Shown here one piece after another: positions 3,111 to 32,205 of a stretch of 39,436 nt of DNA. Each line of letters opens with the position of its first letter. The stretch's first letter is position 1. The notes beneath the pieces were generated by a model. It ran no database searches and was not told the origin of the DNA. It saw nothing but the letters and a program-made list of their open reading frames with translations. The translations under genes and the position numbers were made by a program. The stretch is taken from positions 1-39,436 of the forward strand of contig NZ_JAMWZS010000029.1 in the NCBI RefSeq assembly GCF_024282095.1, in the 5' to 3' direction. The stretch comes from Nitrosomonas sp. Lineage in GTDB: Bacteria; Pseudomonadota; Gammaproteobacteria; Burkholderiales; Nitrosomonadaceae.

Positions 3111-3164
3111 GCTTAGAAAAATCCTTTAACGGGCCTGTTAGGAGAAAGTGCAATCATCCTATTG

Positions 3165-3809: not shown

Positions 3810-4920
3810 ATCGACGATCTTTCCAACAAGCACGTTCTCCACGCCAGTATCGTAGTGCTGATGTCCAAGTCATAGCAAGGTACAATGTACCGATGATAGG
3901 CAATGCGAGTCCCCAAAGTGGAGAACGTTGATAATAAATTAAAGTTGGCATATAGGTAATAAACATAGCCACCCATGCCAGTAAACTTACCATATAAATT
4001 TCTTGAGCCAACAGCAGCAAAAAAGCCAGCGGTGCCGCCCAGAACATCGACACCATGATCAATGTACAGACAGCAAGCAAAATAAACGAATACCTTAACT
4101 GCGTATAAGCCGTTCGAGTCACCATTTCCCAGATGGGCTTTAACGCTTGGTAACTACGATGACTACGTGCCGCATGACTCAATCCTATCCAGGTACGGTA
4201 ACCTGCGCGCTTAATATGCGCCGCTAACGTGCAATCATCGATCAATGCATCATGCAAATTGGCAAAAGCACCTACTGTGCGCAATGCTTGTGTTTCCACC
4301 AAAATACATCCCCCTGCAGCTGCGGCAACTCGTGAAGTTGGCCTATTTGCTAGCCCAAAAGGATATAACAATTTGAAGAAAAAAATGAACGCCGGCATGA
4401 GTAAGCGCTCTATAAAATTCTTCATGGAAGGTTTAGCCATCAATGAAATAAATGCGAGATTCTCATCCTGCGCTTTTCGCCGCAGCTCAGTAACAATTCC
4501 AGGCGTCAACTCAATATCAGCATCCAGCAACAGTGTATAAGGCGTCCTAACTGCCTTGAGTCCCTGTTCAAGCGCCCAGAGCTTTCCGCTCCATCCCGCA
4601 GGGGGTGCGCTACCGGATATGACCTGCGCACCACACTGCCTAGCTTGTTGCGCCGTATCATCATCTGACTGATCATCTATTACGATGATACACGCCCCCT
4701 CTCCCTGCGCTTTCACTCCATTCAGTGTATGTTGAATATAGGGGCCTTCATTGCGCGCGGGAATCAAGACTGTAATATCACTCAGTAAGGTATCAGAATT
4801 TTCAGAAACTCCAACTTCTACCTTTTCACGGGTACTCCAAGGACACCACGGAAACAGTATTAATGACCACCAACATAAGACACCGAAAATAGACAGATAT
4901 AATACGAATTCCATCATCAT
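3787..4920 (-). CDS. hpnB: Hopene-associated glycosyltransferase HpnB (GT2 family)
   Basis: A 377-residue membrane-bound family 2 glycosyltransferase. It has an N-terminal membrane helix, then a GT-A catalytic domain with VLIPARNEG, IDDQSDDDT, LDADIEL (the DxD-type metal/nucleotide-binding motif) and LIDDCTLAAHIKRAG, and a C-terminal block of about three helices. This matches the layout of HpnB, found in hopanoid clusters; its exact sugar donor and acceptor are not settled. A TTG at 4935 could extend the protein by five residues; ATG 4920, first of three consecutive ATG codons, is used here. It lies 49 bp after hpnH and its end overlaps hpnM. A different GT2 acting on an isoprenoid lipid is possible, but the neighbours argue against it. 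Confidence 0.82.
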   Translation of the reverse strand: MMMEFVLYLSIFGVLCWWSLILFPWCPWSTREKVEVGVSENSDTLLSDITVLIPARNEGPYIQHTLNGVKAQGEGACIIVIDDQSDDDTAQQARQCGAQVISGSAPPAGWSGKLWALEQGLKAVRTPYTLLLDADIELTPGIVTELRRKAQDENLAFISLMAKPSMKNFIERLLMPAFIFFFKLLYPFGLANRPTSRVAAAAGGCILVETQALRTVGAFANLHDALIDDCTLAAHIKRAGYRTWIGLSHAARSHRSYQALKPIWEMVTRTAYTQLRYSFILLAVCTLIMVSMFWAAPLAFLLLLAQEIYMVSLLAWVAMFITYMPTLIYYQRSPLWGLALPIIGTLYLAMTWTSALRYWRGERACWKDRRYESRINN

Positions 4921-4969
4921 TCTTACTTGTAGCAAATGCTATCAACCAGTGCCGATACCCTGTATCTGC

Positions 4970-6088
4970 TTATTTGTTAACCAGTGTTACCGGTATATCA
5001 GAAAGTTTCTTCGGCATTTTATTTTCTCCCGCTGCCCATTTGGGGGCAGGCTCAGCCACCATCGGGCCTGTCGTTCTCGGTCCTTTTAGCGATGCAATCA
5101 GTGCCTTCCATGGATGTTGGAGTGTATCTTCAACCGCGGTTGCTTCATATCCACAGTGCGCCATACATTGTGCGCATTTCGGATTATTTGCCGTACCATA
5201 CTTTTCCCACGGCGTATCATCAAGAAGTTCTTTGAAGGTTTTTGCATAACCCTCATCCGATAACAAGTAGCAAGGCTTTTGCCAGCCAAACACATTGCGT
5301 GTCGGATTACCCCATGGTGTACATTCATAATCCTGATTTCCCGCCAGATAATCCAAATAAAGCGCTGAGTGGTTCAATCTCCATTTCCGCTTTAGTTGCT
5401 TACCTAACTCAAAAATGCCACGGAACAATATTTTTGTATCCTGGCTTTTGATAAACACATCTTGCTGAGGTGCCTTTTCATAGCTAAACCCAGGAGCAAT
5501 CGTTGCTGCCTCAACACCCAACTCCATCGCATAGTCCAGAAACTCGGCGACATCCTTCGGTGTTTCGCCTTGAAACAGCGTACAGTTCACAGTAACTCTG
5601 AAGCCTTTATCCAGAGCCAGCTTTATCGCCTCAACCGCACGATCGAAAACACCATCCTGACAAACCGACGCATCATGACGCTCTTTCATACCATCCAAAT
5701 GGATTGAGAATGTTAAATACGGTGACGGGGTATAGTCATCAATCCTTTTCTTTAACAATAATGCGTTGGTACACAAGTAAACATATTTTTTGCGCTGAAT
5801 GATGCCCGCAACAATCTGCGGCATCTCTTTATGTAGCAGTGGCTCCCCGCCTGGAATTGATACCATCGGAGCGCCGCATTCATCGACTGCCTGCATACAC
5901 TCTTCGTATGAGAGACGTTGATCGAGAACATCTTCCGGATGTGCAATCTTTCCACACCCCGCACATGCGAGATTACAGCGAAACAAAGGCTCCAGCATGA
6001 GCACTAAGGGATATTTTTTTACTCCCTTCAGTTTTTGTTTGATTAGATAACTGCCAACTGCAATCTGTTGACGTAAAGGAACTCCCAT
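4970..6088 (-). CDS. hpnH: Adenosyl-hopene transferase HpnH (radical SAM)
   Basis: A 372-residue radical SAM enzyme that joins the 5'-deoxyadenosyl group to hopene (diploptene) to make adenosylhopane, the first committed step toward extended C35 hopanoids. The cluster-binding motif is CNLACAGC, with cysteines at residues 38, 42 and 45 (CxxxCxxC), followed by SIPGGEPLLHKE, the Gly-Gly-Glu SAM-binding motif. The C-terminal CAQCMAHCGYE carries further cysteines seen in this family. The start is well supported: ATG at 6088 has GGAGG about eight bases upstream. It is the first gene of the hopanoid operon, with about 420 bp of AT-rich DNA upstream in which the promoter should lie. The hopane cyclase and hpnCDE genes are not in the window. 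Confidence 0.93.
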   Translation of the reverse strand: MGVPLRQQIAVGSYLIKQKLKGVKKYPLVLMLEPLFRCNLACAGCGKIAHPEDVLDQRLSYEECMQAVDECGAPMVSIPGGEPLLHKEMPQIVAGIIQRKKYVYLCTNALLLKKRIDDYTPSPYLTFSIHLDGMKERHDASVCQDGVFDRAVEAIKLALDKGFRVTVNCTLFQGETPKDVAEFLDYAMELGVEAATIAPGFSYEKAPQQDVFIKSQDTKILFRGIFELGKQLKRKWRLNHSALYLDYLAGNQDYECTPWGNPTRNVFGWQKPCYLLSDEGYAKTFKELLDDTPWEKYGTANNPKCAQCMAHCGYEATAVEDTLQHPWKALIASLKGPRTTGPMVAEPAPKWAAGENKMPKKLSDIPVTLVNK

Positions 6089-18803: not shown

Positions 18804-20480
18804 GTGGCAACAGTACCAAGTGAATCCAATACGACACCACCAGCTAAAACATTTAAACTGGAGCAACTCAGCCAACTATCCAATCAAAAAAAATTGGGGT
18901 TGATACTGGCTGCTGCAGCCGTCATCGCCTTACTGGCAGGTGCTTTGATGTGGAGTCAGACGCCGGATTATCGTGTTCTCTATAGTAACGTATCGAATCA
19001 GGACGGTGCCGCCATCATCAGCTCCTTGCAGCAAATGAACATCCCCTACAAGTTTTCCGACAGTAGTGGTGCCATCTTAATTCCTGAAAAACAGATCCAT
19101 GAAGTACGTCTGCGCTTAGCGGGTCAAGGGTTGCCCAAAGGTGATCTGCCAGGATTTGAATTAATGGAGAATCAGAAGTTTGGCTCCAGCCAATTTCTCG
19201 AGCAGGTCAATTATCAACGGGCGTTAGAAGGCGAATTAGCACGCTCGGTTCAATCGTTATCAGCAGTGCAAAATGCACGCGTACACCTGGCAATTGCCAA
19301 ACCCTCCGTGTTCTCAAGAGAGAAACAGCAACCCAGCGTTTCTGTTTTACTGAATTTGTATCCAGGCAGAGTATTGAGTGTCGAACAAGTCAGTGCAATC
19401 GTACACTTGATGTCGAGTAGCGTACCCAATCTGCCGACAAAAAATGTAACCGTGGTTGATCAAAATGGCAACTTACTCAGCACACAGCATGAAAACAAGC
19501 AAGATAAGGGATTTGATGCCAAGCAATTACAATACATACAAGAGCTTGAAGAAAACTATATCCGTCGTATCGAAACCATACTGTCACCGATTACAGGCGC
19601 CGCCAATGTACGTGCTCAGGTAACTGCGGATTTGGATTTTTCCCGTATCGAGCGCGCTGAAGAAATCTATCGGCCAAACAATACCGAAGCGGATGCTGCC
19701 ACTATTCGCAGCCAGCAAACGCTTGAAGCGACTTCCACAGGTTCAAAAATTGATGGGGGCATTCCCGGAGCACTGACGAACCGTCCACCTGAGCCTGCTG
19801 TTGCGCCTATTGAAGCCGGTGGCGAAAACAAAGAGGCAGGTGATAAGGCGCCACCACCGTTACCGACCGACAAGAAAAAAGAATCCACGATCAATTATGA
19901 AGTGGACAAAACAGTACAACATACACAGCAATCCACTGGCGGTATCAAACGACTCACTGCAGCAGTTGTCGTGAATTATCGCAAGAAAATCAATGAAAAC
20001 GGTGACATTGCCTACGAGCCACTGACTGCCGAAGAAATCAAGGAAATCAATAGCCTTGTCAGAGAAGCCATGGGTTACAGCGAGAAACGCGGAGACTCGT
20101 TGACTGTCACCAACAGCTTGTTCACTGCTGAAAGCGAAACGATATTGGATGCTGCATTCTGGAAAGACCCCGATATCATGATGCTGGCAAAAGACATTGG
20201 CAAACAGCTGTTAATTGCAGCCATTGTTTTGTTTTTCTTGTTAAAAATCCTGCGGCCATTCTTAAAAAGCTTAACTCAACCCCCTCCTCCTGCACTGCCA
20301 GAGAAGGTGGCTGGCGAAGCAACATTGGATCAATTGCCAGGGCAGGTAGATGGAACAGCCATCCAGGCGATCCAGAAATCCATATTTGAGGACAATCTTA
20401 AAAAAGCCAAACAATTGGCGATGGATGAGCCGGCCATTGTCGCCAATGTTGTTAAAGATTGGGTGTCCAAAAATGGATGA
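18804..20480 (+). CDS. fliF: Flagellar MS-ring protein FliF
   Basis: A 558-residue membrane protein that forms the MS ring. It has a first membrane helix at about residues 32-49 (LGLILAAAAVIALLAGALM), the ring-building motifs in the periplasmic part (SNVSNQDGAAIISSLQQMNI and LEGELARSVQSLSAVQNARV), an extended Pro/Glu-rich segment near 320-355, a second membrane helix near 470-490 (LLIAAIVLFFLLKILRPFL) and a short cytoplasmic tail that binds FliG. Length is normal. GTG is the start, eight bases after AGGAG. It opens the plus-strand flagellar operon and overlaps fliG by eight bases. Confidence 0.95.
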   Translation: MATVPSESNTTPPAKTFKLEQLSQLSNQKKLGLILAAAAVIALLAGALMWSQTPDYRVLYSNVSNQDGAAIISSLQQMNIPYKFSDSSGAILIPEKQIHEVRLRLAGQGLPKGDLPGFELMENQKFGSSQFLEQVNYQRALEGELARSVQSLSAVQNARVHLAIAKPSVFSREKQQPSVSVLLNLYPGRVLSVEQVSAIVHLMSSSVPNLPTKNVTVVDQNGNLLSTQHENKQDKGFDAKQLQYIQELEENYIRRIETILSPITGAANVRAQVTADLDFSRIERAEEIYRPNNTEADAATIRSQQTLEATSTGSKIDGGIPGALTNRPPEPAVAPIEAGGENKEAGDKAPPPLPTDKKKESTINYEVDKTVQHTQQSTGGIKRLTAAVVVNYRKKINENGDIAYEPLTAEEIKEINSLVREAMGYSEKRGDSLTVTNSLFTAESETILDAAFWKDPDIMMLAKDIGKQLLIAAIVLFFLLKILRPFLKSLTQPPPPALPEKVAGEATLDQLPGQVDGTAIQAIQKSIFEDNLKKAKQLAMDEPAIVANVVKDWVSKNG

Positions 20481-21468
20481 CGAAGGAATCAAAAAGAGCG
20501 CCATCTTGCTGATGACGTTGGGCGAACAAGAAGCAGCATCCGTCATTAAATTATTAGGCCCCAAGGAAGTGCAGAAACTGGGCGAAACAATGTCCAGTTT
20601 GCAGAATATCTCACGCGCCGAGATTGAAAGCATACTCAAAGAATTCTGCGATGAAGCGGAAGGAAGGACCACGCTGGGCCAGGATTCTGCTGATTATATT
20701 CGCAAGGTTCTGACCAGTGCATTGGGTGATGAAAAAGCTGCCAATCTCATTGATCGTATTCTACATGGCGGCGACACCAGCGGTATTGAAGGACTGAAGT
20801 GGATGGATGCGCCATCGGTGGCCGAACTGATCAAGAATGAACATCCACAAATTATCGCAACCATCTTAGTCCACTTGGAACGCGACCAAGCGAGCGAGAT
20901 ATTAAGCTTATTCACTGAACGATTGCGCAACGATACCTTATTGCGCATCGCCACCTTGGACAGCATACAGCCGGATGCACTCCGCGAACTCAATGATGTA
21001 CTGACAAAATTGCTATCGGGCAGCAACAATATTCGCAAAACGGCTATGGGTGGAATACGCGCCGCAGCGGAAATTCTCAATTTTGTCCCAACTGCCCAAG
21101 AAACCAGTGTCATCGATAACATCAAGCAGTACGACGAAGAGCTGGCACAGAAAATCATGGATGAAATGTTCGTATTTGATAATCTGATTGATATTGATGA
21201 CCATGGTATCCAATTGCTCCTCAGAGAAGTCCAGTCGGAATCTCTGATTATCGCTTTGAAAGGCGCGCAAGAAGAACTGCGCAAGAAAATTTTCAAAAAT
21301 ATGTCGCAACGTGCTGCTGAAGCACTACGAGAAGATCTGGAAAGCAAAGGCCCGGTACGTGTATCCGAAGTCGAAGCCGAACAAAAAGAAATTCTCAAGG
21401 TGCTACGTCAACTGGCTGATGATGGACAAATCGCACTCGGCGGAAAAGGCGAAGATAACTTTATTTAA
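20473..21468 (+). CDS. fliG: Flagellar motor switch protein FliG
   Basis: A 331-residue C-ring protein that receives torque from the stator. The start at 20473 (MDDEGIKKSAILLMTLGEQE) gives the normal FliG length and overlaps the fliF stop by eight bases; an upstream in-frame start exists but would lie inside fliF. The middle domain has the EHPQ motif (LIKNEHPQIIATILVHL), and the C-terminal domain carries the charged torque helix (DLIDIDDHGIQLLLREV) with its alternating charged residues. It probably cannot be expressed without fliF translation. Confidence 0.95.
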   Translation: MDDEGIKKSAILLMTLGEQEAASVIKLLGPKEVQKLGETMSSLQNISRAEIESILKEFCDEAEGRTTLGQDSADYIRKVLTSALGDEKAANLIDRILHGGDTSGIEGLKWMDAPSVAELIKNEHPQIIATILVHLERDQASEILSLFTERLRNDTLLRIATLDSIQPDALRELNDVLTKLLSGSNNIRKTAMGGIRAAAEILNFVPTAQETSVIDNIKQYDEELAQKIMDEMFVFDNLIDIDDHGIQLLLREVQSESLIIALKGAQEELRKKIFKNMSQRAAEALREDLESKGPVRVSEVEAEQKEILKVLRQLADDGQIALGGKGEDNFI

Positions 21469-21489
21469 CAAATATACCCCCTACTAAAC

Positions 21490-21510
21490 TTATTCAATCA
21501 GCTTGAATAA
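21490..21510. other. AT-rich hairpin between fliG and fliH
   Basis: TTATTCAA and TTGAATAA pair perfectly around a five-base loop in the 64-bp gap between fliG and fliH. There is no following T-tract, so it is more likely a stabiliser or attenuator within the operon transcript than a terminator. It may be chance. Confidence 0.3.
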
Positions 21511-21532
21511 ATAGGTTAATAAAGGTTTACAA

Positions 21533-22246
21533 ATGGCAACAAGCAGCTTCATTCCCAAAGCAGAACTCAATGCCTATCAGCGATGGGAAATGAACGCTTT
21601 GGATGCACCCGATCCAATTCCGGAAGAACATGATCAGCAACTCAACACTGAAGATAATACCCTGGTAGACGAGCAAAATAAGATCACCTTGCCCACTGAA
21701 GAAGAAATTTCAGCAATTCTTCAGCATGCCAAAACAGAAGGCTATGCGGCAGGCTATCAAGAAGGAAACGCAGCGGGATACGCAGCAGGCAGGAAAGCGG
21801 CAGAAATAGAGGTTACCACCGAGGTAGCCCGTCTCCAAACACTGTTATCCAATCTCGACCAAGATCTGCATACAATTGATCAGCACGTTGCGGATGATTT
21901 ATTGGGTCTGGCCATTGCGCTTACTAAAAAAATGGTTACCCAGGCATTACAGCTAAAACCTGAGCTCATCGCGCCCATTGTGCAAGAGGCGATTCGAAAT
22001 TTACCCAGTGCGATGCAACATCCGCGACTTTATTTGCATCCTGATGATGCCAAAATAGTCCATGCACACTTGGGTGATCAGTTAGCGCAAGACAGCTGGT
22101 CTATCCGTGAAGATGAACAATTATCCCAAGGCGGCTGCCGCATCGAAGCCAATGGCAGTGAAATCGACGCAAGTCTGGAGGTGCGCTGGCAGCGGGTATT
22201 ATCGGCGATCGGCCAGAATGACAGCTGGTTGGAAAAAAATGACTAA
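21533..22246 (+). CDS. fliH: Flagellar export ATPase regulator FliH
   Basis: A 237-residue protein that binds and restrains the FliI ATPase and links it to the C ring. Residues 74-92 have a run of Gly-x-x-x-Gly and Ala-x-x-x-Ala spacings ([17 protein letters not shown]), the glycine-repeat helix known in FliH. The C-terminal half has the FliH/YscL fold features, including the helix around [17 protein letters not shown] and the final strand ([18 protein letters not shown]). Its stop overlaps the fliI start by eight bases (ATGACTAA). Confidence 0.9.
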
Positions 22247-23654
22247 TATGAATCGCCATGAACAATGGGGCAGCTTCTTGAAAAATTGCACCCAGCTGAT
22301 TACCCCCGCCAATCCACTGTTATCAAGCGGCACGATTACACGCGTTGCCGGGTTAGTGATGGAAGCGGTAGGACTCCGGTTGGCCGTTGGCAGTAGTTGT
22401 ACTATTTTTCTATCGAATGGCTACAGCGTCTCGGCCGAAGTCGTTGGATTCTCCGGAGATCGCCTATTCTTAATGCCGTCCAGCGATGTGTATGGATTAT
22501 CTCCAGGTGCCAAAGTAGTTCCTACCGAATGTGTTGCCGACCCCCTCAAGATCGGTAATTTTCAACATCCCCGCAGACGTGCAGCAGATCGCGCCAAGCA
22601 TATCAGCGTTGGCCCCGAACTACTGGGGCGCGTGATAAATGGATTGGGTGAACCGCTGGATCGCCTTGGCCCCACGCGCGCGGAACACAACGTACCGCTA
22701 TACAGCCGCCCTTATAACCCGCTGGAAAGAATTCCCGTCACTCAGCCGCTTGACGTTGGGGTACGTGCAATTAACACGCTGTTGACTGTCGGACGGGGAC
22801 AACGCATGGGATTGTTTGCCGGCAGTGGTGTGGGCAAAAGCGTATTGCTTGGCATGATGGCACGCTATACCAGCGCTGATGTGATTGTTGTGGGACTCAT
22901 CGGTGAACGGGGGCGTGAGGTTAAAGAATTCATAGAACATATTCTCGGTGCCGAAGGGCTCGCACGCTCGGTAGTTGTCGCAGCGCCTGCTGACACTTCA
23001 CCGTTGCTGCGCTTGCAAGGCGCAGCGTATGCGACAGCCATTGCCGAATATTTTCGCGATAGCGGCAAACATGTTCTACTGATTATGGATTCACTGACCC
23101 GCTATGCCATGGCGCAGCGGGAAATAGCCCTGGCTATCGGCGAACCTCCTGCGACCAAAGGTTATCCGCCCTCCGTATTTGCCAAACTACCGCAACTGGT
23201 AGAACGCGCCGGTAACGGCAACCAAGAGAATGGATCGATTACAGCCTTTTATACAGTATTGACTGAAGGGGATGATCAGAATGATCCCATCGCCGATAGC
23301 GCGCGCGCCATTCTTGATGGACATATCGTGCTATCGCGCCGATTAGCCGAAGCAGGACATTACCCGGCAATTGATATCGAAGCTTCGATCAGCCGCATCA
23401 TGACCAGCGTGGTACCACAAAAGCAAATTGACATGGCCAGACAATTCAAGAGCCTCTATTCACGCTACCAACGCAGCCATGACTTGATCAGTGTAGGTGC
23501 GTATGTCGCCGGTACAGATCCGGAACTGGATCGGGCCATTAAGCTGTATCCCGCATTCGAAAAATTTTTAAATCAAAACATGTCGCAACAAGAGAATTTT
23601 GCCAATAGTCTTGAGAAACTGACCAAGTTATTTGATAGCGACGCAACCCGATAA
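22239..23654 (+). CDS. fliI: Flagellum-specific export ATPase FliI
   Basis: A 471-residue hexameric ATPase related to the F1 beta subunit. It has Walker [12 protein letters not shown], the catalytic glutamate in [11 protein letters not shown], Walker [13 protein letters not shown], and the family motif [20 protein letters not shown]. The start at 22239 overlaps fliH; a second ATG at 22248 would shorten it by three residues. An upstream in-frame start lies inside fliH and is rejected. It drives unfolding and loading of flagellar export substrates. Confidence 0.95.
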
Positions 23655-23672
23655 TCAGAAACAAACGCTCTT

Positions 23673-24131
23673 ATGTCCACATCGTCATCGCTAAAACTAC
23701 TTCTGGAATTAGCTCAGCAACAAACGGATGCGTCATCCAAGAAACTGGGGAAATTAAATTTTCAGCAGCAGGAAGCGGAAAAGAAATTAAATTTACTGTT
23801 GCAATATCGCCAGAGTTACCAAGCACACCTGCAGAACGCCATAGCAACGGGCATTGACCAAATGGAATGGCTTAATTTCATTGCATTCATGAATAAGCTC
23901 GATGCCGCTATCAATGAACAGCGCCAAGCAGTTCTGCATGCCCAGAATAAGCGGATTGCCGGAAGCAATGAATTTTTGTTCCATCAGCGCAAACTAAAAT
24001 CCTACGACACGCTGTCGCAACGCCAACAAGCCGCAGAGAATCTGCGGCAATCAAAGTATGAACAGAAATTGCAAGATGAGTTTGCTTCGAATGCTTTCAA
24101 CCGTCACTCATTTCCTAAGAACGACAACTAG
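23673..24131 (+). CDS. fliJ: Flagellar export chaperone FliJ
   Basis: A 152-residue protein, almost wholly alpha-helical coiled coil and rich in Gln, Lys and Leu, in the position of FliJ directly after fliI. FliJ sits in the FliI hexamer like the gamma subunit of F1 and couples it to the export gate. Sequence identity in this family is low, so the call leans on length, helical pattern (residues 1-60 and 75-145) and gene order. It is the last gene before the sigma-54 promoter of fliK. Confidence 0.85.
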   Translation: MSTSSSLKLLLELAQQQTDASSKKLGKLNFQQQEAEKKLNLLLQYRQSYQAHLQNAIATGIDQMEWLNFIAFMNKLDAAINEQRQAVLHAQNKRIAGSNEFLFHQRKLKSYDTLSQRQQAAENLRQSKYEQKLQDEFASNAFNRHSFPKNDN

Positions 24132-24154
24132 CAACCTCTCACAATCGCCGAAAC

Positions 24155-24170
24155 TGGCATAGAGATTGCA
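24155..24170 (+). promoter_or_regulatory. Sigma-54 promoter for fliK
   Basis: TGGCAT, five bases, then TTGCA: the invariant GG and GC of the -24/-12 elements are exactly ten bases apart, and 10 of the 11 bases of TGGCAC plus TTGCA match. Transcription would start near 24182, about 34 bases before the fliK ATG. It lies in the 84-bp fliJ-fliK gap, and a sigma-54 activator (FleR) is encoded in the same cluster. Confidence 0.78.
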
Positions 24171-24215
24171 TATATTACTGGCAACGCTATCACCCTTATT
24201 TGAGATCGAAAACTT

Positions 24216-25370
24216 ATGCTAAATATATCTGCCGCGCCTCAAATCAAATCGTCCACTGACAATCCAATACTGGCTGGCAACCCTGAGCCGGGCACTACAC
24301 AAGAACCCGCGACAGAGGAGTTTTCTAAAGTATTGGAGCGTGAAGTATCCGGAACAGCCAACAAACGGGAAACAAATAACGCTACCACGACATCAGAACC
24401 CTCAGAAAAAACAACCTTACCGAAAGATGACGATACAGCTTCGGTTGCGACAACGGACATATCCGGTACAAACAACCTGATCAGCAGGTTATTTTTTGAG
24501 GCTACAAATAGTACATATGCAGCAGATCAACTGTTACCTCCATTTGATCCAACGAACCCGAATATACTGACGGCCACGCCGATCATGCCGATGGCATTAT
24601 CCACATCACTTCAAAATTCATTCATTCCGCAAGATAACAAACTGGCGACAAGCTCGTCACTTCTCGCTGGTCAAATGCTGCAACAAAAATTGGCGCAAGC
24701 TACTGCGGCTGAAAGTAATCTTACTTATGCATTGGATGCCTTTTGGCAATCAGTGGGGGCGGCAGATTCTGCCATTGACGGCAAACTTTTACCATTCTCT
24801 TCAGAAATGAGCGACGCTATCCAGGCCAGCACAGGAGAAAGTCTATTTTCAGTATCCAATGAACCTGCTTCGACACAACCGTTTGGCTTAAGCAGTACCA
24901 CGGCTACCACTTCCCTCAATACAACGCCACAGAGTGTTCAAGTCGATCTCCCTGTGGGTCAACCCAAATGGGGTAACGAGTTTGCACAAAAAATCATCTG
25001 GTTAACTTCACAACAAAACCAGGTAGCCGAAATCCATTTAAACCCAGCTCACTTGGGTCCTGTTGAAGTGATGCTCAGCATTACGCAAGATCAAGCCACT
25101 GCACAATTCTTATCTCCGCATTTAGCAGTACGCGAAGCCATTGAAGAAGCCTTGCCAAGATTAAGAGAGATGATGGCTGAAAATGGCATTCAGTTGGGTA
25201 ATGTCATGGTAGGTGCCGAATCATTCCAACAAGACAATAAACAACAGCAAGCATATAGTCCAGCAAAGGGCATCCCCCATACAACTGGCACAAGAACGGA
25301 GGCTATTGGTCAAATTGAAACAACCGTTTCGTCCAGCAAACATAATGGTATGGTCAATACCTATGCTTGA
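24216..25370 (+). CDS. fliK: Flagellar hook-length control protein FliK
   Basis: A 384-residue secreted ruler protein. The N-terminal two thirds is low-complexity (Thr, Ser, Ala, Asn, Gln), as usual in FliK. The conserved C-terminal domain spans about residues 248-335, with WLTSQQNQVAEIHLNPAHLG and VEVMLSITQDQATAQF, then AIEEALPRLREMMAENGI, which switches export specificity from hook to filament. A sigma-54 promoter lies 46 bases upstream and a hairpin terminator candidate downstream, so fliK may be a separate transcription unit within the cluster. Confidence 0.9.
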   Translation: MLNISAAPQIKSSTDNPILAGNPEPGTTQEPATEEFSKVLEREVSGTANKRETNNATTTSEPSEKTTLPKDDDTASVATTDISGTNNLISRLFFEATNSTYAADQLLPPFDPTNPNILTATPIMPMALSTSLQNSFIPQDNKLATSSSLLAGQMLQQKLAQATAAESNLTYALDAFWQSVGAADSAIDGKLLPFSSEMSDAIQASTGESLFSVSNEPASTQPFGLSSTTATTSLNTTPQSVQVDLPVGQPKWGNEFAQKIIWLTSQQNQVAEIHLNPAHLGPVEVMLSITQDQATAQFLSPHLAVREAIEEALPRLREMMAENGIQLGNVMVGAESFQQDNKQQQAYSPAKGIPHTTGTRTEAIGQIETTVSSSKHNGMVNTYA

Positions 25371-25692
25371 CCATTTAATAATCAAACCTATTGCATCGAT
25401 CGCATCGGTCTTTTATCCCTGAGCTGTCACACCATCGGATTCAATGAGTGACAGCAGATTATGTTTTCTTAACACCGATCCGAATTCTGAATTTTTACTC
25501 ATTTTCTGAAATTAACCTTAAAAAACCTGTATCACAAACATTTTCAAATCAAAGAAATTTACAGGAATGCTGGTTAGATTCTTGACTTACTCTCGTACTT
25601 GAAAATAGCGACGTTATTTCATTGTTATTTGTCATATCAGTTTATTGCTCCGTCTAAGATAATTGAGCTCATCCAATAAGGAGTTGAGCAAA
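25371..25692. other. Intergenic region between fliK and fliL
   Basis: A 322-bp gap holding the hairpin above and, near its end, AAGGAG (25678-25683), the ribosome site of fliL. A TTGACT at 25582 could be a -35 element but no good -10 follows at the right distance. The gap suggests that fliL-M-N-O-P-Q-R form a separate transcription unit. No gene is seen here. Confidence 0.5.
25423..25455 (+). terminator. Candidate terminator after fliK
   Basis: GCTGTCAC (25423-25430) and GTGACAGC (25448-25455) form a perfect 8-bp stem with a 17-base loop, 52 bases after the fliK stop. A T-rich stretch follows nine bases later but not directly, so efficiency is uncertain. Confidence 0.5.
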
Positions 25693-26181
25693 ATGTCAAA
25701 AGCTATTGAAGCACCAGCCGGATCAGACGGCAAAAAAAATAAAAAAGGACTAATCATCATAATCTTGATAGCAATCATTGCTATCGGTGCAGGTGCCGGC
25801 GGTACATGGTATGCGATGAAGATGTTAGGTGGCGGAGAATCAGAACCTGAGAAACCCAAGGAAAAGCCGACTACATTTGTAGATCTTGATACTTTTACGG
25901 TGAATCTTCAGCCGGAAGGAAATGGTCAATATTTGCAGGTTGGATTAACGGCAAAAACCAGAGAAACACCTGTCGTCGCTGAAATTAAGAAACAAATGCC
26001 AGAAATCCGCAATCGCATTTTAATGTTACTTTCCAGCAAAAAAGCCACAGACGTCGCAGTTATTGCAGGAAAACAACAACTCAGTCAGGAGATTGTTGAT
26101 GAAATCAAACAATCATTAGGCCCAGTAGAACTGCAAGAAGATGTACTGGAAGTATTATTTACATCATTCGTGATTCAGTAA
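25693..26181 (+). CDS. fliL: Flagellar stator-associated protein FliL
   Basis: A 162-residue single-span inner-membrane protein. The start at 25693 is set by AAGGAG nine bases upstream; an in-frame start ten codons earlier lacks a ribosome site. A short basic N-terminus (GKKNKKG) precedes the membrane helix (LIIIILIAIIAIGAGAGGTWYAM, residues about 20-42). The periplasmic part has the family features: TFVDLDTFTVNLQ, VAEIKKQMPEIRNRILMLLS and a C-terminal VLFTSFVIQ. FliL surrounds the stator units and supports torque. It starts the fliLMNOPQR block. Confidence 0.93.
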   Translation: MSKAIEAPAGSDGKKNKKGLIIIILIAIIAIGAGAGGTWYAMKMLGGGESEPEKPKEKPTTFVDLDTFTVNLQPEGNGQYLQVGLTAKTRETPVVAEIKKQMPEIRNRILMLLSSKKATDVAVIAGKQQLSQEIVDEIKQSLGPVELQEDVLEVLFTSFVIQ

Positions 26182-26188
26182 ATCTCAA

Positions 26189-27166
26189 ATGGCTGAAGAC
26201 TTTCTCTCACAAGACGAGGTTGACGCACTTCTCAAAGGCGCCACCGGCGAAAGCGATGAAGTGCAGAATGAAGAAGAGAAGGGAGGCGTTCGAGCCTATA
26301 ACATTGCTACGCAAGAACGCATTGTTCGTGGACGGATGCCTACGTATGAAATTATCAATGAACGATTTGCACGTTTATTGCGTATCGGTTTATTCAATTT
26401 CATGCGCCGTACAGTGGATATTTCAGTGAGTCCCGTTAAAGTCATCAAGTTCAGTGAATTCGTACGCAATCTGGTGGTACCAACCAATCTGAACATGGTT
26501 CATATGAAACCGCTTCGAGGTACCGCATTACTGGTTTTTGATCCTAATCTGATTTTTCTGATTGTAGATAACTTGTTCGGCGGCGATGGCCGGTATCACA
26601 CCCGCGTTGAAGGCAGAGATTTTACGCAAACCGAACAACGTATTATTCAGCGCTTGCTCAATGTGGTATTTGAAGATTACGAGAAATCGTGGAAGTCGGT
26701 TTATCCCGTTAAATTTGAGTATGTCAGATCCGAGATGAATCCACAGTTTGCAACGATCGCCACCCCCAATGAAGTCGTCGTTACGGTTACTTTCGATATT
26801 GATATGGGCAACAAAGGCGGCGCATTACATGTCTGCATTCCGTATTCCATGATCGAGCCCATCCGGGATACTTTATACAGCTCCTTGCAAGGCGACCATC
26901 TGGAAGTTGATAAGCGCTGGATCAAGCTGCTGTCACAACAGGTACAAGGCGCCGAAGTGGAGTTGGTTGCCAACTTTGGGCATACGAAAGTTACCTTTGA
27001 TCAGATTCTCAGCATGCAAGCAGGAGATATCATCCCACTGGACATCCCCAAAACTGTTACCGCACATGTCGACGGCATACCCGTTATGGATTGTCACTAT
27101 GGCACCATGAATGGGCAGTATGCACTTAGGGTCAATGCGATGATCTCCTCGTCAGAAACCGAATAA
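26189..27166 (+). CDS. fliM: Flagellar motor switch protein FliM
   Basis: A 325-residue C-ring protein. The N-terminal LSQDEVDALLKG is the peptide that binds phosphorylated CheY. The middle domain (about residues 45-230) contains RIGLFNFMRRTVDISVSPV and LVFDPNLIFLIVDNLFGGDG, which bind FliG, and the C-terminal SpoA/FliN-like domain (about 250-320) has LGHTKV-type sequence (FGHTKVTFDQILSMQAGDII). It lies seven bases after fliL and 16 bases before fliN. Length is normal. Confidence 0.95.
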   Translation: MAEDFLSQDEVDALLKGATGESDEVQNEEEKGGVRAYNIATQERIVRGRMPTYEIINERFARLLRIGLFNFMRRTVDISVSPVKVIKFSEFVRNLVVPTNLNMVHMKPLRGTALLVFDPNLIFLIVDNLFGGDGRYHTRVEGRDFTQTEQRIIQRLLNVVFEDYEKSWKSVYPVKFEYVRSEMNPQFATIATPNEVVVTVTFDIDMGNKGGALHVCIPYSMIEPIRDTLYSSLQGDHLEVDKRWIKLLSQQVQGAEVELVANFGHTKVTFDQILSMQAGDIIPLDIPKTVTAHVDGIPVMDCHYGTMNGQYALRVNAMISSSETE

Positions 27167-27182
27167 TCTATTGGAGACTAAT

Positions 27183-27698
27183 ATGTCAGAATCCACAGCA
27201 AATAATCAGACCGACACCGACGATTGGGCCGCAGCGATGGCCGAACAAGCGGCATCCACTCAAAATGGCTCGGCCGAGAAAGAAACAGAAGTTGATGATT
27301 GGGCCGCCGCTATGGCCGAGCAAACAGCGTCTACCAGTATGAAAGGAAACACTTTGGCATCGACCGATACAGGGAAAAACAGCAATACAATGCCTGGCGC
27401 GCAAGCAGCCTCAGTATTCGAAGAATTCTCAAAAGATAGCGCAATGCACAGTACCCGTCACGACATCGACATGATTCTCGATATCCCCGTGCAACTGACG
27501 GTTGAATTAGGGCGCACTAAAATTGCCATCAAGAATTTGCTGCAATTGGCACAAGGCTCGGTTGTTGAGCTGGACGGCATGGCTGGCGAACCGATGGACG
27601 TACTGGTCAACGGTTGCTTGATTGCGCAAGGTGAAGTGGTGGTCGTCAATGATAAATTCGGTATCCGCTTGACGGATATCATCACAACGGTTGCTTGA
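27183..27698 (+). CDS. fliN: Flagellar motor switch protein FliN, with altered C-terminus
   Basis: A 171-residue C-ring/SpoA-domain protein. The start at 27183 has GGAG six bases upstream; an earlier TTG at 27171 is less likely. The N-terminal extension has the motif DDWAAAMAEQ twice (residues 13-22 and 38-47). The SpoA domain (about 95-168) has DIPVQLTVELGRTKIAIKN, VVELDGMAGEPMDVLVNG and VVVVNDKFGIRLTDII. The end is abnormal: after DIIT the protein reads T-V-A and stops, because a 77-bp tandem duplication shifts the frame. Without it the protein would end PSERIRKLNR, which matches the usual FliN C-terminus, at 178 residues. The gene may still work, since the fold core is intact, but the last helix residues are lost. 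Confidence 0.9.
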   Translation: MSESTANNQTDTDDWAAAMAEQAASTQNGSAEKETEVDDWAAAMAEQTASTSMKGNTLASTDTGKNSNTMPGAQAASVFEEFSKDSAMHSTRHDIDMILDIPVQLTVELGRTKIAIKNLLQLAQGSVVELDGMAGEPMDVLVNGCLIAQGEVVVVNDKFGIRLTDIITTVA

Positions 27699-27763
27699 TT
27701 GCGCAAGGTGAAGTGGTGGTCGTCAATGATAAATTCGGTATCCGCTTGACGGATATCATCACA
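27608..27763. repeat. Exact 77-bp tandem duplication at the 3' end of fliN
   Basis: Bases 27608-27684 are repeated without a mismatch from 27685 to 27761, and the match continues two more bases (CA, 27685-27686 against 27762-27763). The two-base microhomology at the junction fits replication slippage or a misjoined assembly. Because 77 is not a multiple of three, reading from the first copy into the second changes frame and meets TGA at 27696-27698. Confidence 0.97.
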
Positions 27764-27796
27764 CCCAGCGAACGTATTCGCAAACTTAATCGCTAG
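27699..27796 (+). pseudogene. fliN: Orphaned original 3' end of fliN
   Basis: After the premature stop, the second repeat copy continues in a different frame into the ancestral end of fliN, which encodes PSERIRKLNR and the TAG at 27794-27796, nine bases before the fliO start. No start codon with a ribosome site opens this frame, so the tail is presumably untranslated. It increases the distance from the fliN stop to the fliO start to about 106 bases and could weaken coupling. Confidence 0.8.
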
Positions 27797-27804
27797 AGTC
27801 ATCT

Positions 27805-28242
27805 ATGTTAAATCGTTATTGGATATTTTTAGGCTGGATGCTCCCGCTCCATGCTCTTGCTGAAACGGCAAAATCAGGCTATGTACCTCCTCCTTCCGTG
27901 GTATCCACTGAAAGTACGCTGCAAATGATGGGCGGATTAATACTGGTGTTGGCAGTCATAGCGGGTATTACATGGCTTCTCAAACGCTTTGCACTCATTC
28001 CTACTACCGCCACAGGCACACTTAAAGTGGTTGCGGCAACCGGAGTAGGCCAAAGAGAACGTGTGGTGGTCGTTGAAATTGACAATACTTGGTTAGTCTT
28101 GGGTGTAGCGCCAGGTCGCGTCAACAAGCTGCATACAATGGACAAGCCCGCACTCGGTACTACCGATAAAACGCAAAATAGCCAGCCCACTGAGACATTT
28201 GCTGTGCAACTTAACGAGAGTATTCAGAAAAACAATGCCTAA
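27805..28242 (+). CDS. fliO: Flagellar export apparatus protein FliO
   Basis: A 145-residue membrane protein that helps assemble the FliPQR gate. It has a hydrophobic N-terminus ending near ALAETA that may be a signal, a membrane helix at about residues 40-62 ([22 protein letters not shown]) and the FliO domain that follows ([21 protein letters not shown], then [19 protein letters not shown]). Its stop overlaps the fliP start by eight bases. Sequence is variable in this family, but position and the [11 protein letters not shown] motif are clear. Confidence 0.9.
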
Positions 28243-29017
28243 CAATTGTACGTCCACCATTCGAAACGCTAGACTGAGCGTGCTCAAGATACTATTTTTC
28301 CTGGCAGGCTGCATCGCGCTGCCGGCATTTGCACAAAAATCCGGTTTTCCCGCCTTCACCAGTTCACCCGGCGCGGGTGGCAGTACAACGTATGCGCTGA
28401 ACTTACAGACATTGCTGTTGTTGACTTCACTGACATTTTTACCTGCGATGGTACTCATGATGTCAAGTTTCACCCGCATCATCATTGTTTTGTCATTACT
28501 AAGATTGGCGTTAGGCACACAATCTTCCCCGCCTAACCAGGTATTGCTCGGATTGGCGTTATTTTTGACCTTTTTTATTATGTCACCGGTTATTGACCGG
28601 GTTTACACAGAAGCGTATGTGCCTTTTTCTGAAGACAAAATAAGTATCATGGAAGCGGCGGATAAAGCCAGTGTGCCGTTAAAATCATTTATGCTGCACC
28701 AAACCCGGGAAACAGATTTAGCACTATTCGTGCAAATCTCAGGCAGCGAGAAAATCGAAAGCCGCGACAATGTACCGCTGAAAATACTGGTTCCGGCGTA
28801 TATCACCAGTGAGCTAAAGACTGCATTCCAGATTGGCTTTGTGATATTTATTCCATTCTTAATCATTGACCTGGTTGTATCCAGTGTATTGATGGCCATG
28901 GGTATGATGATGCTGTCACCGATGATCATTTCATTGCCCTTTAAATTAATGCTGTTTGTTTTGGTCGATGGCTGGCATCTCATCATCGGTTCATTGACAC
29001 AAAGCTTCTATACCTGA
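28235..29017 (+). CDS. fliP: Flagellar export gate protein FliP
   Basis: A 260-residue membrane protein of the type III export gate, starting at 28235 inside the end of fliO. A cleavable signal peptide (hydrophobic [18 protein letters not shown]) is usual for FliP. Diagnostic sequences are [46 protein letters not shown] and, near the end, [23 protein letters not shown] with [17 protein letters not shown]. Five copies form the channel with FliQ and FliR. Confidence 0.95.
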
Positions 29018-29030
29018 AAGGAAATCCATC

Positions 29031-29303
29031 ATGACTCCAGAAAGTGCAATGACAATCGGCCGGCAAGCGCTTGAAATCACCTTTATGGTTTCCGCCCCTC
29101 TGTTGCTCTCAGCTTTAGCGACCGGCTTATTAGTCAGTATCTTCCAAGCCGCGACGCAGATCAATGAAATGACCTTGTCATTCATACCCAAATTATTAGT
29201 CATGTTTCTGGTTATCGTACTGGCCGGACCTTGGATGATCAATCTGATGACGGATTATATGCAGCGCCTGTTTACCAGCATCCCTTGGCTGGCAATTGGT
29301 TAA
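29031..29303 (+). CDS. fliQ: Flagellar export gate protein FliQ
   Basis: A 90-residue protein with two membrane helices (about residues 14-38 and 52-75). MTPESAMTIGRQALEI and ATQINEMTLSFIPKL are diagnostic of FliQ. A good ribosome site (AAGGAAA) precedes the ATG, 13 bases after fliP. It wraps around the FliP-FliR core in the export gate. Confidence 0.95.
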   Translation: MTPESAMTIGRQALEITFMVSAPLLLSALATGLLVSIFQAATQINEMTLSFIPKLLVMFLVIVLAGPWMINLMTDYMQRLFTSIPWLAIG

Positions 29304-29398
29304 TATTGCCAGCCATAATAAGACCAGGCCGGAATGAGCAATGTTAATCATCAATATGCCGTCAATCCATAGCTCGCTGAGCAACTGAATTTAGCATC

Positions 29399-30196
29399 AT
29401 GATCAGTATAACCACTGCAGAATTAAACACATTGCTGGCAACCTTCATTTGGCCGCTCAGCAGAATTCTGGCGCTGATTGCAACAGCCCCTATCCTGGGT
29501 AATCCAAGTATCCCGATCAGGGTAAAACTGGGACTGGCATTGATGATCACCATTCTGGTCGCACCTACCGTTGAAAAATCATTACCGCAAATTGATCCAT
29601 CCACAGGCATAGGCTTAATCATCCTGTTGCAGCAAATACTGATTGGTGTTGCGATTGGATTTGTCATGCGTATTGTTTTCGTTGCGGTAGAAATGGCCGG
29701 TGAGCTCATTGGTCTACAAATGGGGCTTGGTTTTGCAATTTTCTTTGATCCGCAAAACTCCGGTCAGATAGATATTATCGGTCGCTTCCTGGGCATCATC
29801 GCCAGCCTGGCATTTTTGGCAATTGACGGCCATTTGATGATGATCGCCCTGATCTCACAAAGTTTTAGCACATTACCGGTCAGCCCTGACGGCGTCACAG
29901 AGGCCACATTCACCACACTTGCAAACTGGGGGAGTGAGATTTTCAAATCGGGTTTGCAGTTATCACTGCCCGTTTTAACCGCGCTACTTATCACCAACCT
30001 TGCCTTGGGCATTCTGACACGCGCCGCGCCGCAATTAAATATTTTTGCAGTGGGTTTTCCGCTGACACTTTCCATCGGTCTTCTCGTACTGGCACTCAGC
30101 ATGCCTTTTTACGCACCGATTCTGGAGCAGCTCATGCATGACAGTTTACGTTTAATGATGGGAATTCTGAATGTCAGCAAAATCGATATGCCATAA
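29399..30196 (+). CDS. fliR: Flagellar export gate protein FliR
   Basis: A 265-residue membrane protein with about six helices, the single-copy part of the export gate. Typical segments are IWPLSRILALIATAPILGNP, RVKLGLALMITILVAP, GLQMGLGFAIFFDPQ-like sequence and RAAPQLNIFAVGFPLTLSIGLL. It follows fliQ by 95 bases, a gap in which no gene was seen. flhB and flhA, which often come next, are absent from the window. Confidence 0.94.
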   Translation: MISITTAELNTLLATFIWPLSRILALIATAPILGNPSIPIRVKLGLALMITILVAPTVEKSLPQIDPSTGIGLIILLQQILIGVAIGFVMRIVFVAVEMAGELIGLQMGLGFAIFFDPQNSGQIDIIGRFLGIIASLAFLAIDGHLMMIALISQSFSTLPVSPDGVTEATFTTLANWGSEIFKSGLQLSLPVLTALLITNLALGILTRAAPQLNIFAVGFPLTLSIGLLVLALSMPFYAPILEQLMHDSLRLMMGILNVSKIDMP

Positions 30197-30360
30197 CTCT
30201 GTTTTTAAAACTACGACGGCCATTAATACATAAACAGATGCTATTTCCCCGCTTTTTCAACATAAGCCTTTTATCCAAAAGTTGTTACAGTATTCACTTA
30301 CTTACCCAAGCTATTTTTAGCATGATCAGTTCAAGTACTCGTTAGTTTGATTAATAACTT

Positions 30361-32205
30361 ATGACCTTTAAGTCGCGCTTACTCAGTTCACTACGCAAAA
30401 TTTCATCGTCGGAGTCTCACGATGACAAGGAAGCGGCTACGTTTAATAGCGAACCACAATCCGGCGACGCATTTGATTCTGACCAGCAATCTTCGCTCAT
30501 CCATGATCTCAAACAGCAACTTGAAAGCGCTTATCGTGATCGTCTGAGCGCGGAAGATCAGGCTATCAAGGAAGCACAGAAACGCATTGAAGCAGAAAGC
30601 ATTGCACGCGTGGCGGCTGAAGCAAGAGCACGGGCTGAGGCCAATGCCAGAATTGCAGCCGAGACTAGAATTCAGGCTGAAACAACTGCAACCGAGCAAG
30701 CCCGGGCCCGAGCAAAAGCGGAAGCGCTTGCAGTTCAAGAAGCCCATGTCTGCTATGAACTGGAAATCAAAACCAAGCAACTCGCGGACGAAAAGTACAA
30801 AGCGGAAAAAGCTTTAAGTGCGCTATTGGAAGCCAAACTCAAAACCGAGGCTTCTATCGTCGAGAAAATGCAAAAACGTGTTGAACAAGAAATTGCAGCT
30901 CTAGATCAGGCTCATGCCACTGCATTGAAAGAACATGAAGCGGCTGAGGCAGCCATGCGCAGCGCCAAACTAGCCGAAGAAGCCCGACTGATTGCATTGG
31001 CCGCCATTGCAGCCGAAACCAATGCACTGATGCTGGCACAGGCAAAAATTCAGGAATCGCAACGAATCATCGCCTTGGCACAAGCACGTGAAGAAGCCGA
31101 GAAACAAGCGCTGGAAGAAGCACAAACCCGTTCCCGATTGGAAGCACAAGCCTTGGAACAAGCTACCCGGCGCCTGGATATTGAAAGGCAAGCAAGAGCG
31201 GCAGAAGACCATAGAATGCAGGCTGAAATCGCCGCTGTACAGGCCGCAATGGAAAAAGCCGAAGCTGAAACGATGGCTGCCGAGCAAGCCAGAAAAAGAG
31301 CGGAATTGGATGCTCAGGCAACCATCGCAGCACGCGACAGAACCGATGCTGAACAGGTTGCCATGGAAATTGCCGAATCCATCATTGCCAAAGAAAATGC
31401 AGCCGCCGATGCCATCAAAACCCGCCTTATCGCGGAATCCGAATTGCTTGAAGAAGTCAATCAACGCATGCAAATCGAGGCTGAGGCATCAATTGCTGCT
31501 GAAGCAGCTTTACGCGCTGAGAAAGAAGCGACAGCCATCGCCAACGACAGGAAAAAAGCTGAAAGTACCGCGGCAAAAGAATATCAAAAACGCATCAAAG
31601 CAGAAGAAAAAGCCATTAAGGAAGCTGAAGCACGGACAGAAGCTGAAGTAGCCGCCAAGAATGCGGCCAAAAACAGAGCGGATGCAGAAATACGATTAAA
31701 AACCACAGCAGAAGCAAAAGCGCAGATGGATACGCTCACCGCACAAGAAGCGAACACTAAAGCCGAATTGGAACAACGTTTATTAGAAGATGCCGAAATT
31801 CGCGCCAAGGCAATGATTGATGCAAAGCAAGCTGTGGCCGAGCGTCTTGAAATTGAGCAAAAAATTACCGGCCTGGCGATAACCAGAGCACAGGCTAAAA
31901 TTATTGCCACCAACAAGGCCAAAGCTCAGCTTGAAGCAGAAAAAGCAGCAACCAAAATCGCTTTAGAAAAAGCCAGAACTGAATCAGCGGCACTCGTCGC
32001 CATGCAGGAACGCCTGGCGCTGGAATCAAAAGCACTAGAAGCTGCCACGGAACGAGAAGCCGTTGAAGTCATGGCAAAAGAAGCCCTATTCGCGCGCTCT
32101 CAGGCTGACAAGGAAGCAACTGCCGCGGCCGCCGCAAGAATACGCGCTGAGATTGCCGCCGCAACACACTCCCGGAATAGAGCTGTCGCAGGCACTAAAT
32201 ATTAA
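30361..32205 (+). CDS. Giant regular-repeat helical protein: 39 tandem 14-residue units
   Basis: A 614-residue protein I do not recognise. Residues 1-60 are polar, Ser/Asp-rich and begin with a short basic stretch (MTFKSRLLSSLRKISS). From residue 61 to 606 the chain is 39 consecutive units of exactly 14 residues with consensus [RK]xxAExxAxxxAxx; only RAVAGTKY follows. By eye, position 1 is Arg or Lys in 32 units and position 5 is Glu or Asp in 35. There is no Pro or Trp and almost no Gly in the repeats. Fourteen residues are two heptads, so a continuous coiled coil or long single helix is expected, with Arg1-Glu5 salt bridges on each unit. No signal peptide or membrane helix is present. It follows fliR by 164 bp on the same strand. 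A cytoplasmic scaffold or filament is a guess. Confidence 0.9.
   Translation: MTFKSRLLSSLRKISSSESHDDKEAATFNSEPQSGDAFDSDQQSSLIHDLKQQLESAYRDRLSAEDQAIKEAQKRIEAESIARVAAEARARAEANARIAAETRIQAETTATEQARARAKAEALAVQEAHVCYELEIKTKQLADEKYKAEKALSALLEAKLKTEASIVEKMQKRVEQEIAALDQAHATALKEHEAAEAAMRSAKLAEEARLIALAAIAAETNALMLAQAKIQESQRIIALAQAREEAEKQALEEAQTRSRLEAQALEQATRRLDIERQARAAEDHRMQAEIAAVQAAMEKAEAETMAAEQARKRAELDAQATIAARDRTDAEQVAMEIAESIIAKENAAADAIKTRLIAESELLEEVNQRMQIEAEASIAAEAALRAEKEATAIANDRKKAESTAAKEYQKRIKAEEKAIKEAEARTEAEVAAKNAAKNRADAEIRLKTTAEAKAQMDTLTAQEANTKAELEQRLLEDAEIRAKAMIDAKQAVAERLEIEQKITGLAITRAQAKIIATNKAKAQLEAEKAATKIALEKARTESAALVAMQERLALESKALEAATEREAVEVMAKEALFARSQADKEATAAAAARIRAEIAAATHSRNRAVAGTKY
30541..32178 (+). 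repeat. Coding array of 39 x 42-bp units
   Basis: The 39 14-residue units occupy 1638 bp without any indel. Units differ strongly in DNA sequence, so the array is old and its length has been kept by selection on the protein; recent slippage would leave near-identical neighbours. Units at residues 131-144 and 187-214 are the most degenerate. Confidence 0.88.

Follow-up and report, generated by a model that had tools for sequence, protein, structure and literature searches.

A 14-Residue Repeat Rod Protein Encoded behind fliR in Nitrosomonas and Its Link to Flagellar Genes

Introduction

Nitrosomonas is an ammonia oxidizer that nitrifies soils and wastewater. In the stretch of Nitrosomonas sp. 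DNA analyzed here (39,436 nt, contig NZ_JAMWZS010000029.1; the whole stretch is referred to below as the window), a run of flagellar genes, fliF-G-H-I-J-K-L-M-N-O-P-(Q)-R (18804..30196, forward strand; Pfam assignments, with fliQ placed by position only), precedes an open reading frame at 30361-32205 on the same strand, which encodes a 614-aa protein with the head-rod-tail layout of a coiled-coil protein and with 70 homologues in the fetched genomes of the genus. What does such a protein do behind the flagellar genes, and is its place there more than an accident of gene order? The original prediction, made from the sequence of the window, described it as a rigid uninterrupted rod and proposed a scaffold, ruler, or filament with a possible link to flagellar placement or cell shape. 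The evidence presented below suggests a probable role as a structural component of the swimming machinery or as a scaffold for it.

Results

Gene and Flagellar Neighborhood

The gene directly 5' of the rod gene is fliR (29399..30196, forward strand; TIGR01400, 242 bits), whereas the genes downstream encode a NifS-like aminotransferase, a nucleotidyltransferase, and other proteins (Pfam/NCBIfam). The closest named public record belongs to Nitrosomonas sp. Nm84 (93% identity). The genome of the window encodes FlhF, FliA, and FlhC as well as a MinD-like ATPase at the usual place of flhG, and thus the rod protein adds to an ordinary flagellar system and replaces no part of it. A direct role in flagellar placement or cell shape, which the original prediction had raised, found no support. 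Its interpretation as a replacement for FliK or FlhF was rejected, both being present and ordinary, as was its interpretation as the FliK hook-length ruler, since it lacks the Flg_hook C-terminal domain and the true FliK, separate and canonical, is encoded at 24216-25370. A plasmid or phage origin was likewise set aside, as the rod protein has no protein match in either collection (low-complexity filter on). At the other end of the window (426-6088), genes for an MMPL transporter, an MlaC-like protein, a glycosyltransferase, and a radical-SAM/DUF3463 protein stand in series, forming a row that we take to resemble a hopanoid cluster.

The 14-Residue Repeat

The rod spans residues 61-606 (30541..32178, forward strand), as delimited by unit cutting, by alignment of relatives, and by a Viterbi scan. 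Cut every 14 residues, it yields 39 units with zero indels, in which position 1 is Arg or Lys in 32/39 and position 5 is Asp or Glu in 35/39 units; the unit count and both tallies of the original prediction were thereby reproduced exactly. Sequence identity at lag 14 is 0.271; over 500 shuffled sequences, identity at the best lag averaged 0.169 and reached at most 0.197. The Viterbi scan holds one phase across residues 57-614, which for the window protein is a consistency check, its unit profile having been built from the same units that were scanned. The consensus is broken at position 1 or 5 in units 6, 10-13, 21, 24, 31, 33, and 34, with the register kept throughout.

Alanine has a periodicity peak at 3.50 residues, that is, seven residues per two helical turns, and charge has peaks at 2.8, 7.0, and 14.0, whereas I, L, V, M, and F alone produce no dominant 3.5-residue peak. 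The seam of the rod is therefore alanine, not leucine. With respect to the heptad slots, Ala is commonest at slots 1, 4, and 5 and large hydrophobic residues are densest at slot 2, adjoining the alanine seam, which together make a wide non-polar face. Each 14-residue unit carries Arg/Lys and Glu on this face in one heptad and alanines in the other, and the helix may be made for packing against more than one neighbor. When staggers were scored electrostatically, shifts of 4 and 10 modulo 14 were preferred on average, by a modest margin and without a shuffle control.

The 3.5-residue period suggests that the rod helices form a coiled coil, which would differ from the canonical type with a Leu/Ile core, as it is alanine rather than large hydrophobics at a and d that carries the period. 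Single alpha-helix (ER/K) domains are characterized by very high charge and by E-to-K (i, i+4) bridges; the charged fraction of the rod, 0.35, falls below the usual threshold for such domains, and its 546 residues contain 30 E/D-to-K/R and 45 K/R-to-E/D pairs at i+4. At ~0.149 nm per residue, 546 helical residues correspond to ~80 nm.

Searches with the window protein found no Pfam or NCBIfam family at a threshold of E 0.001 and, with that sequence alone as the query, nothing in the PDB at E <=0.01; 16 aligned relatives gave no Pfam match better than E 0.14. These searches bear out the earlier statement that the protein falls into no named family. Within the open PMC literature, in which Nitrosomonas motility papers are covered in part, we found no description of the rod protein, and also no paper on 14-residue (tetradecad) coiled coils or on alanine-rich coiled coils of bacteria; the fliR of PMC10781756 is a Comamonas gene.

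Head, Tail, and Predicted Structure

The head opens with a basic, hydrophobic motif, MTFKSRLLSSLRKIS (residues 1-15; 30361..30405, forward strand), that is its best-kept part: F3 is found in 70/70, K4 in 69/70, L7 in 68/70, and L11 in 67/70 homologues, and the structural model places a helix at residues 3-10. The mean net charge of residues 2-15 is ~+3.5, and the amphipathic moment is unremarkable, being equaled by 17.5% of shuffles. The linker that follows (residues 16-60; 30406..30540, forward strand) is variable and, as predicted, mostly disordered, with 15 different head lengths among relatives and pLDDT of 37-42 over residues 11-40. The tail of the window protein is short (residues 607-614; 32179..32202, forward strand), compared with a maximum of ~155 residues in relatives.

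The invariant F3 and the L7 kept in 68/70 fit an FxxxL-type motif, which is a flagellar export motif. Combined with the low model confidence for residues 11-40 and with the position of the gene behind those of the export gate, this fit raises the question of whether the protein is a substrate of the flagellar type III export apparatus, e.g., a surface or filament-associated rod. Such a substrate appears quite unlikely, given that FliK is already there as a separate, canonical protein, that no sigma-28 promoter consensus precedes the gene, and that a relative from another genus (g20, described below) has a membrane-span-like stretch after its rod, which better suits an anchored protein.

The preferred assignment of the N-terminal motif is that of an anchor, proposed by analogy with crescentin of Caulobacter crescentus. 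Crescentin requires its first 27 residues, which are positively charged, to attach to the membrane, although direct lipid binding of this segment was not demonstrated (PMC3087291, PMC10873595).

AlphaFold2, run for the monomer only with 16 sequences, returned a model of modest confidence (mean pLDDT 72, pTM 0.22), in which the rod consists of two helices, 46-347 and 362-603, separated by a low-confidence break at residues 348-361 (31402..31443, forward strand). The predicted break lies just before the sites of +4 and +84 insertions in relatives (366-372), which together make a hinge near residues 350-370 plausible; a second group of indels in relatives is at residues 298-310. Of the "rigid uninterrupted rod" initially proposed, the unbroken register thus stands, whereas a single rigid body is called into question by the model.

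Rod Length and Register among Relatives

Rod length was compared in an alignment of 69 full-length proteins of the genus, with two proteins cut by contig ends left out, and was measured over residues 71-594. Sixty-one of the 69 have the same rod length as the window protein with zero gaps, at identities to it as low as 40%. The eight exceptions comprise one protein with +224 residues (16 units), two with +112 (8 units), three with +4, one with -69, and one with +78, so that the change is by whole units in three of the eight. Phase changes within the rod were detected by the Viterbi scan only in the +4, -69, and +78 proteins. The +4 change, which has the size of a classical stutter, is found in 3/69 relatives, while the window protein has no stutter; the -69 protein is read by the scan as a shift of one, the alignment of the +78 protein is uncertain, and neither fits simply. 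The same 69 proteins have 15 different head lengths and 29 different tail lengths. The flanks thus carry many indels and the rod few, and the 14-residue phase, conservation of which had been named as support for a structural role, is fixed in most of the genus, as is the unit number.

These data bear on the view that the protein is a generic low-complexity, alanine-rich helix without a defined role. Its lack of a family match and a monomer model that is just helix would agree with that view, which is contradicted by the exact length and register in 61/69 proteins, down to 40% identity and between variable flanks; we consider it highly improbable. Strong sequence evidence instead points to a conserved structural role. 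The notion of a universal ruler fared worse, as the number of units varies from about 34 to 55 in five genomes of the genus. Four of these five fall, in the rpoB tree, within one supported clade of seven, the other three members of which have 39 units.

Conservation is strongest towards the rod ends (units 1-4, 32, 33, and 37 rank among the top ones), a pattern that would be expected of a rod whose ends contact partners and whose middle serves mainly to maintain spacing and register. Well-kept ends, along with the tight genetic link to fli genes, would also suit a protein that assists the export ATPase or the C-ring, or a regulator for which the helix serves as a long arm. Neither a globular domain nor a known binding motif was found in the window protein by Pfam and NCBIfam searches, and FliH, FliI, and FliJ are all present in the window cluster and ordinary, which renders an accessory or regulator improbable.

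Co-occurrence with Flagellar Genes

The distribution of the rod protein was surveyed in 85 genomes of the genus, 72 of which gave a match; one of the 72 (G021) holds a remnant only, leaving 71 carriers, the window included. Two of the 71 copies are cut by contig ends and another (G081) lacks the last residues only. Genomic regions were fetched for the 70 carriers other than the genome of the window, as well as for G096 and G021. Among 70 genomes of good quality (completeness >=90%, contamination <=5%), 59 have both fliR and the rod protein, and from the other 11 both fliR and an intact copy are absent.

In the full set of 85, fliR is present in 72 genomes and flhA in 74. The rod protein accompanies fliR in 71 of the 72, the exception being G096, whose sequence ends 83 bases past the fliR match. 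Three genomes (G010, G004, and G014) lack fliR and retain flhA; G004 and G014 are incomplete, and the flhA of G014 is partial. Conversely, the 83% complete G073 has fliR and the rod protein without flhA. G010 is 100% complete and has a full flhA, with neither fliR nor the rod protein, perhaps because its flagellar system is in decay.

We mapped these patterns onto a quickly built rpoB tree that covers 40 of the 85 genomes, including 12 of the 13 fliR-negative ones (G014 was omitted because of a split rpoB), in which 11 of 37 inner branches are open. The rpoB of G064 (L198) sits on a very long branch and is probably a contaminant contig of the assembly. The tree implies five changes for fliR and five for the rod protein, all concordant, with G096 uncounted for the protein; four changes for fliR remain when G004, G010, and G096 are dropped. 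Independent pairs agree in five of five cases (sign test, p 0.0625, the best value attainable with five pairs), and one of the five concordant events hangs on the flhA-positive G010. Since the rod gene usually touches fliR, one deletion can take both, and the co-absence is weaker evidence than it appears.

Gene Position, Relocated Copies, and a Remnant

In 65 of the 71 carriers (window included), the rod gene comes next after fliR in the same orientation, in agreement with the expectation of a conserved fliR neighborhood. In one more genome (G048), the rod gene and fliR are both at contig ends. The remaining five copies, all in flagellates that have fliR, are clearly away from it, in three kinds of place: near gmk (G024, G078, and G080), beside valS (G057), and beside the atp operon (G074). 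Neighbors of relocated copies were named by reading translations, and the fliR regions were inspected for four of the five. The three copies near gmk may stem from a single move, as they are alike in sequence.

G021, which lacks both fliR and flhA, retains a remnant ORF of 167 codons (L136:5806-6309, reverse strand) in which the head and some three units run straight into the tail, the rest of the rod being missing in frame. Its residues 1-98 align to sister proteins with at most one small gap. Beyond residue 100, it scores better against sister tails than 300/300 shuffles for two of the three sisters; for the third, the score was reached by 2/300. The genes downstream of the remnant match those in the flagellate sister G001. 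By this sequence comparison, the rod was removed in frame, while the head, the part nearest the lost fli genes, stayed.

The retention of relocated copies in genomes with fliR, together with the loss of the rod in G021, speaks against adjacency as the sole explanation. The flagellar link, which the original prediction had raised from position next to fliR, now extends beyond neighborhood to a presence and absence that track fliR across the genus; it is well supported, with adjacency as a confounder.

Upstream Region

A conserved non-coding block, TAAACAGnnnnnATTTnCCnnnCTTTTTC (30231..30259, forward strand), precedes the start codon by ~130 nt and is shared with the upstream regions of relatives. 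It was matched within 4 substitutions in 47/71 upstream regions, a count made without a shuffle control, and occurs as a single copy within 3 mismatches in the genome of the window. Four of the five relocated copies are among the 47: the block is kept in G024, G078, and G080, and G057 has a loose match, whereas G074 has none.

A sigma-28 promoter was rejected, as matches within 4 mismatches were found in only 6/71 upstream regions and matches to the shorter core within 2 mismatches in 1/71. The sigma-54 pattern was found within 2 mismatches in 15/71, and the ten matches listed fall between -285 and -228, for the most part within the terminal stretch of fliR. At 2 mismatches, an FlhDC half-box occurs once before the rod gene and once before fliF, and not before flhB and fliE. 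The half-box upstream of the rod gene is a hint at most, because the background in the window is 0.46 such matches per kb (3.9 per kb at 3 mismatches). In N. ureae, flagellin was reportedly unexpressed under the growth conditions of a proteomics study (PMC5960693), and expression of the rod gene may accordingly need motile cultures.

Relatives beyond the Genus

Matches in a family survey of 125 genomes were confined to two of four genera, namely Nitrosomonas and one 51%-complete genome of genus g20 (G140). The g20 relative is a protein of 986 aa (L062:10001-12961), also encoded behind fliR, with about 53 units and with residues 65-804 (740 residues) in one phase; a hydrophobic stretch resembling a membrane span, recognized by eye, follows the rod and is itself followed by a tail. 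Genus g19, which its lineage suggests is probably Nitrosospira, gave no rod-protein match, though 22 of its genomes have fliR, and no such coil was seen among the ORFs after fliR in six g19 genomes. Flagella in general therefore do not need the rod protein.

In a sample of 399 genomes of the order, full-length matches were found only in Nitrosomonas, and the seven others are partial (E 3e-15 or weaker). We read six of the seven partial-match regions and the region L064, the coil of which lies at L064:9947-13654. The coils L064, L221, L223, L224, and L225 have autocorrelation peaks at multiples of 14 and phase shifts inside the coil; L222 and L226 are below the composition filter and hence unprofiled, and L222 begins like L064. 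As a group, L064 and L221-L225 (from Gallionellaceae and other Burkholderiales families) resemble the window rod in being Ala-rich with a 14-residue periodicity, and the rod starts of L064 and L224 look much like it by eye. They differ from the window protein in their internal phase shifts, their other N-termini, and their mostly non-flagellar neighbors (guaA, an RND pump, and a response regulator, as read from translations). A coil near a guaA-like gene is present in two genomes of one family (L222 and L224). At L226:4980-5732 (reverse strand; G319), a 250-aa ORF has a partial match to the rod profile, and nearby translations resemble fliD, fliA, motAB-type, and ParA proteins. In our reading, these proteins make up a broader and loosely related class of 14-residue alanine coils, and the Nitrosomonas protein would be a regular, flagellum-linked branch of it. 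The original prediction had warned of homologues scattered away from flagellar genes; copies within the genus are mostly in phase and linked to fliR, whereas the coils of other Betaproteobacteria have phase breaks and are mostly non-flagellar.

The neighbors of these coils also speak for a general cytoskeletal or cell-envelope rod that serves cell shape or intracytoplasmic membranes and is tied to the flagellar cluster passively, by position. An architecture like that of shape filaments such as crescentin agrees with such a rod, and adjacency accounts for part of the co-loss. Passive linkage is harder to reconcile with the absence of an intact copy from 11/11 good-quality genomes without fliR, with the retention of five relocated copies, every one in a genome with fliR, and with G021, which lost the rod and kept its downstream neighbors. 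We consider a general rod rather unlikely.

Discussion

Of the known systems, crescentin (CreS) is the most instructive for comparison. Both proteins have a head-rod-tail layout with a short basic N-terminus, a long coiled-coil rod, and a very short tail, the coiled coil of the Nitrosomonas protein being deduced from its 3.5-residue period. They differ in that the Nitrosomonas rod has an alanine-rich seam, a strict 14-residue unit and, in the window protein, no stutter, and in that it is linked to flagellar genes, whereas crescentin is linked to cell curvature. A single-sequence PDB search detected no sequence relation to crescentin or another solved member of its type at E 0.01. The rod protein looks as if it works like bacterial intermediate-filament-like proteins, and we claim likeness, not membership.

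The domain II of TolA is likewise a long helix rich in Ala, Glu, and Lys. In TolA, this helix is accompanied by a membrane span at the N-terminus and by a C-terminal domain in the periplasm; inspection by eye revealed neither in the window protein, which has no Pfam match.

FilP, CcrP, CfpA, and other bacterial filament proteins rich in coiled coils, which we compared by description, share long coiled coils and a restricted distribution with the rod protein, which has no Pfam or NCBIfam match. The CcrP of H. pylori is reportedly required for shape and motility (PMC3296230).

We regard the chances as about even that the rod protein is a flagellum-dedicated structural protein of Nitrosomonas, with a build of the bacterial intermediate-filament type, that assembles by itself into a scaffold. 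In the mechanism that we propose, the basic, hydrophobic N-terminal motif would anchor the protein to the inner membrane or the flagellar base, and would be followed by the variable linker and by an alanine-rich coiled coil built from 39 units of 14 residues, which would measure ~80 nm if straight. As each 14-residue unit offers an Arg/Lys-Glu patch and an Ala patch, rods could pack side by side in register, and the packed rods might yield a bundle, filament, or plate by which the flagellar base is anchored, spaced, or organized. Oligomerization as a coiled coil, cytoplasmic location, attachment to the membrane or basal body, self-assembly, and the cellular role itself are all points that we infer.

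A bolder version of the scaffold, which we offer only tentatively, is a dedicated flagellar cytoskeleton, i.e., a cytoplasmic strut or filament whose 14-residue lock would set both side-by-side assembly and a fixed length of ~80 nm, and which would connect the base of the flagellum with the membrane or with some other structure at the pole. The protein would then represent one specialized offshoot of a broader and as yet undescribed class of 14-residue alanine coils in Betaproteobacteria.

It is difficult to connect a long bacterial coiled coil with a process from its sequence alone. In the present protein, an exact register that is deeply conserved comes together with a clean pattern of presence and absence that follows a single organelle. 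Its 14-residue unit represents a simple natural design for a long rod with an alanine seam, and the copies of about 34 to 55 units provide a ready series for studying the effects of rod length. If the protein is indeed a flagellar scaffold, it would add a cytoskeletal part to a machine whose parts were thought to be well listed.
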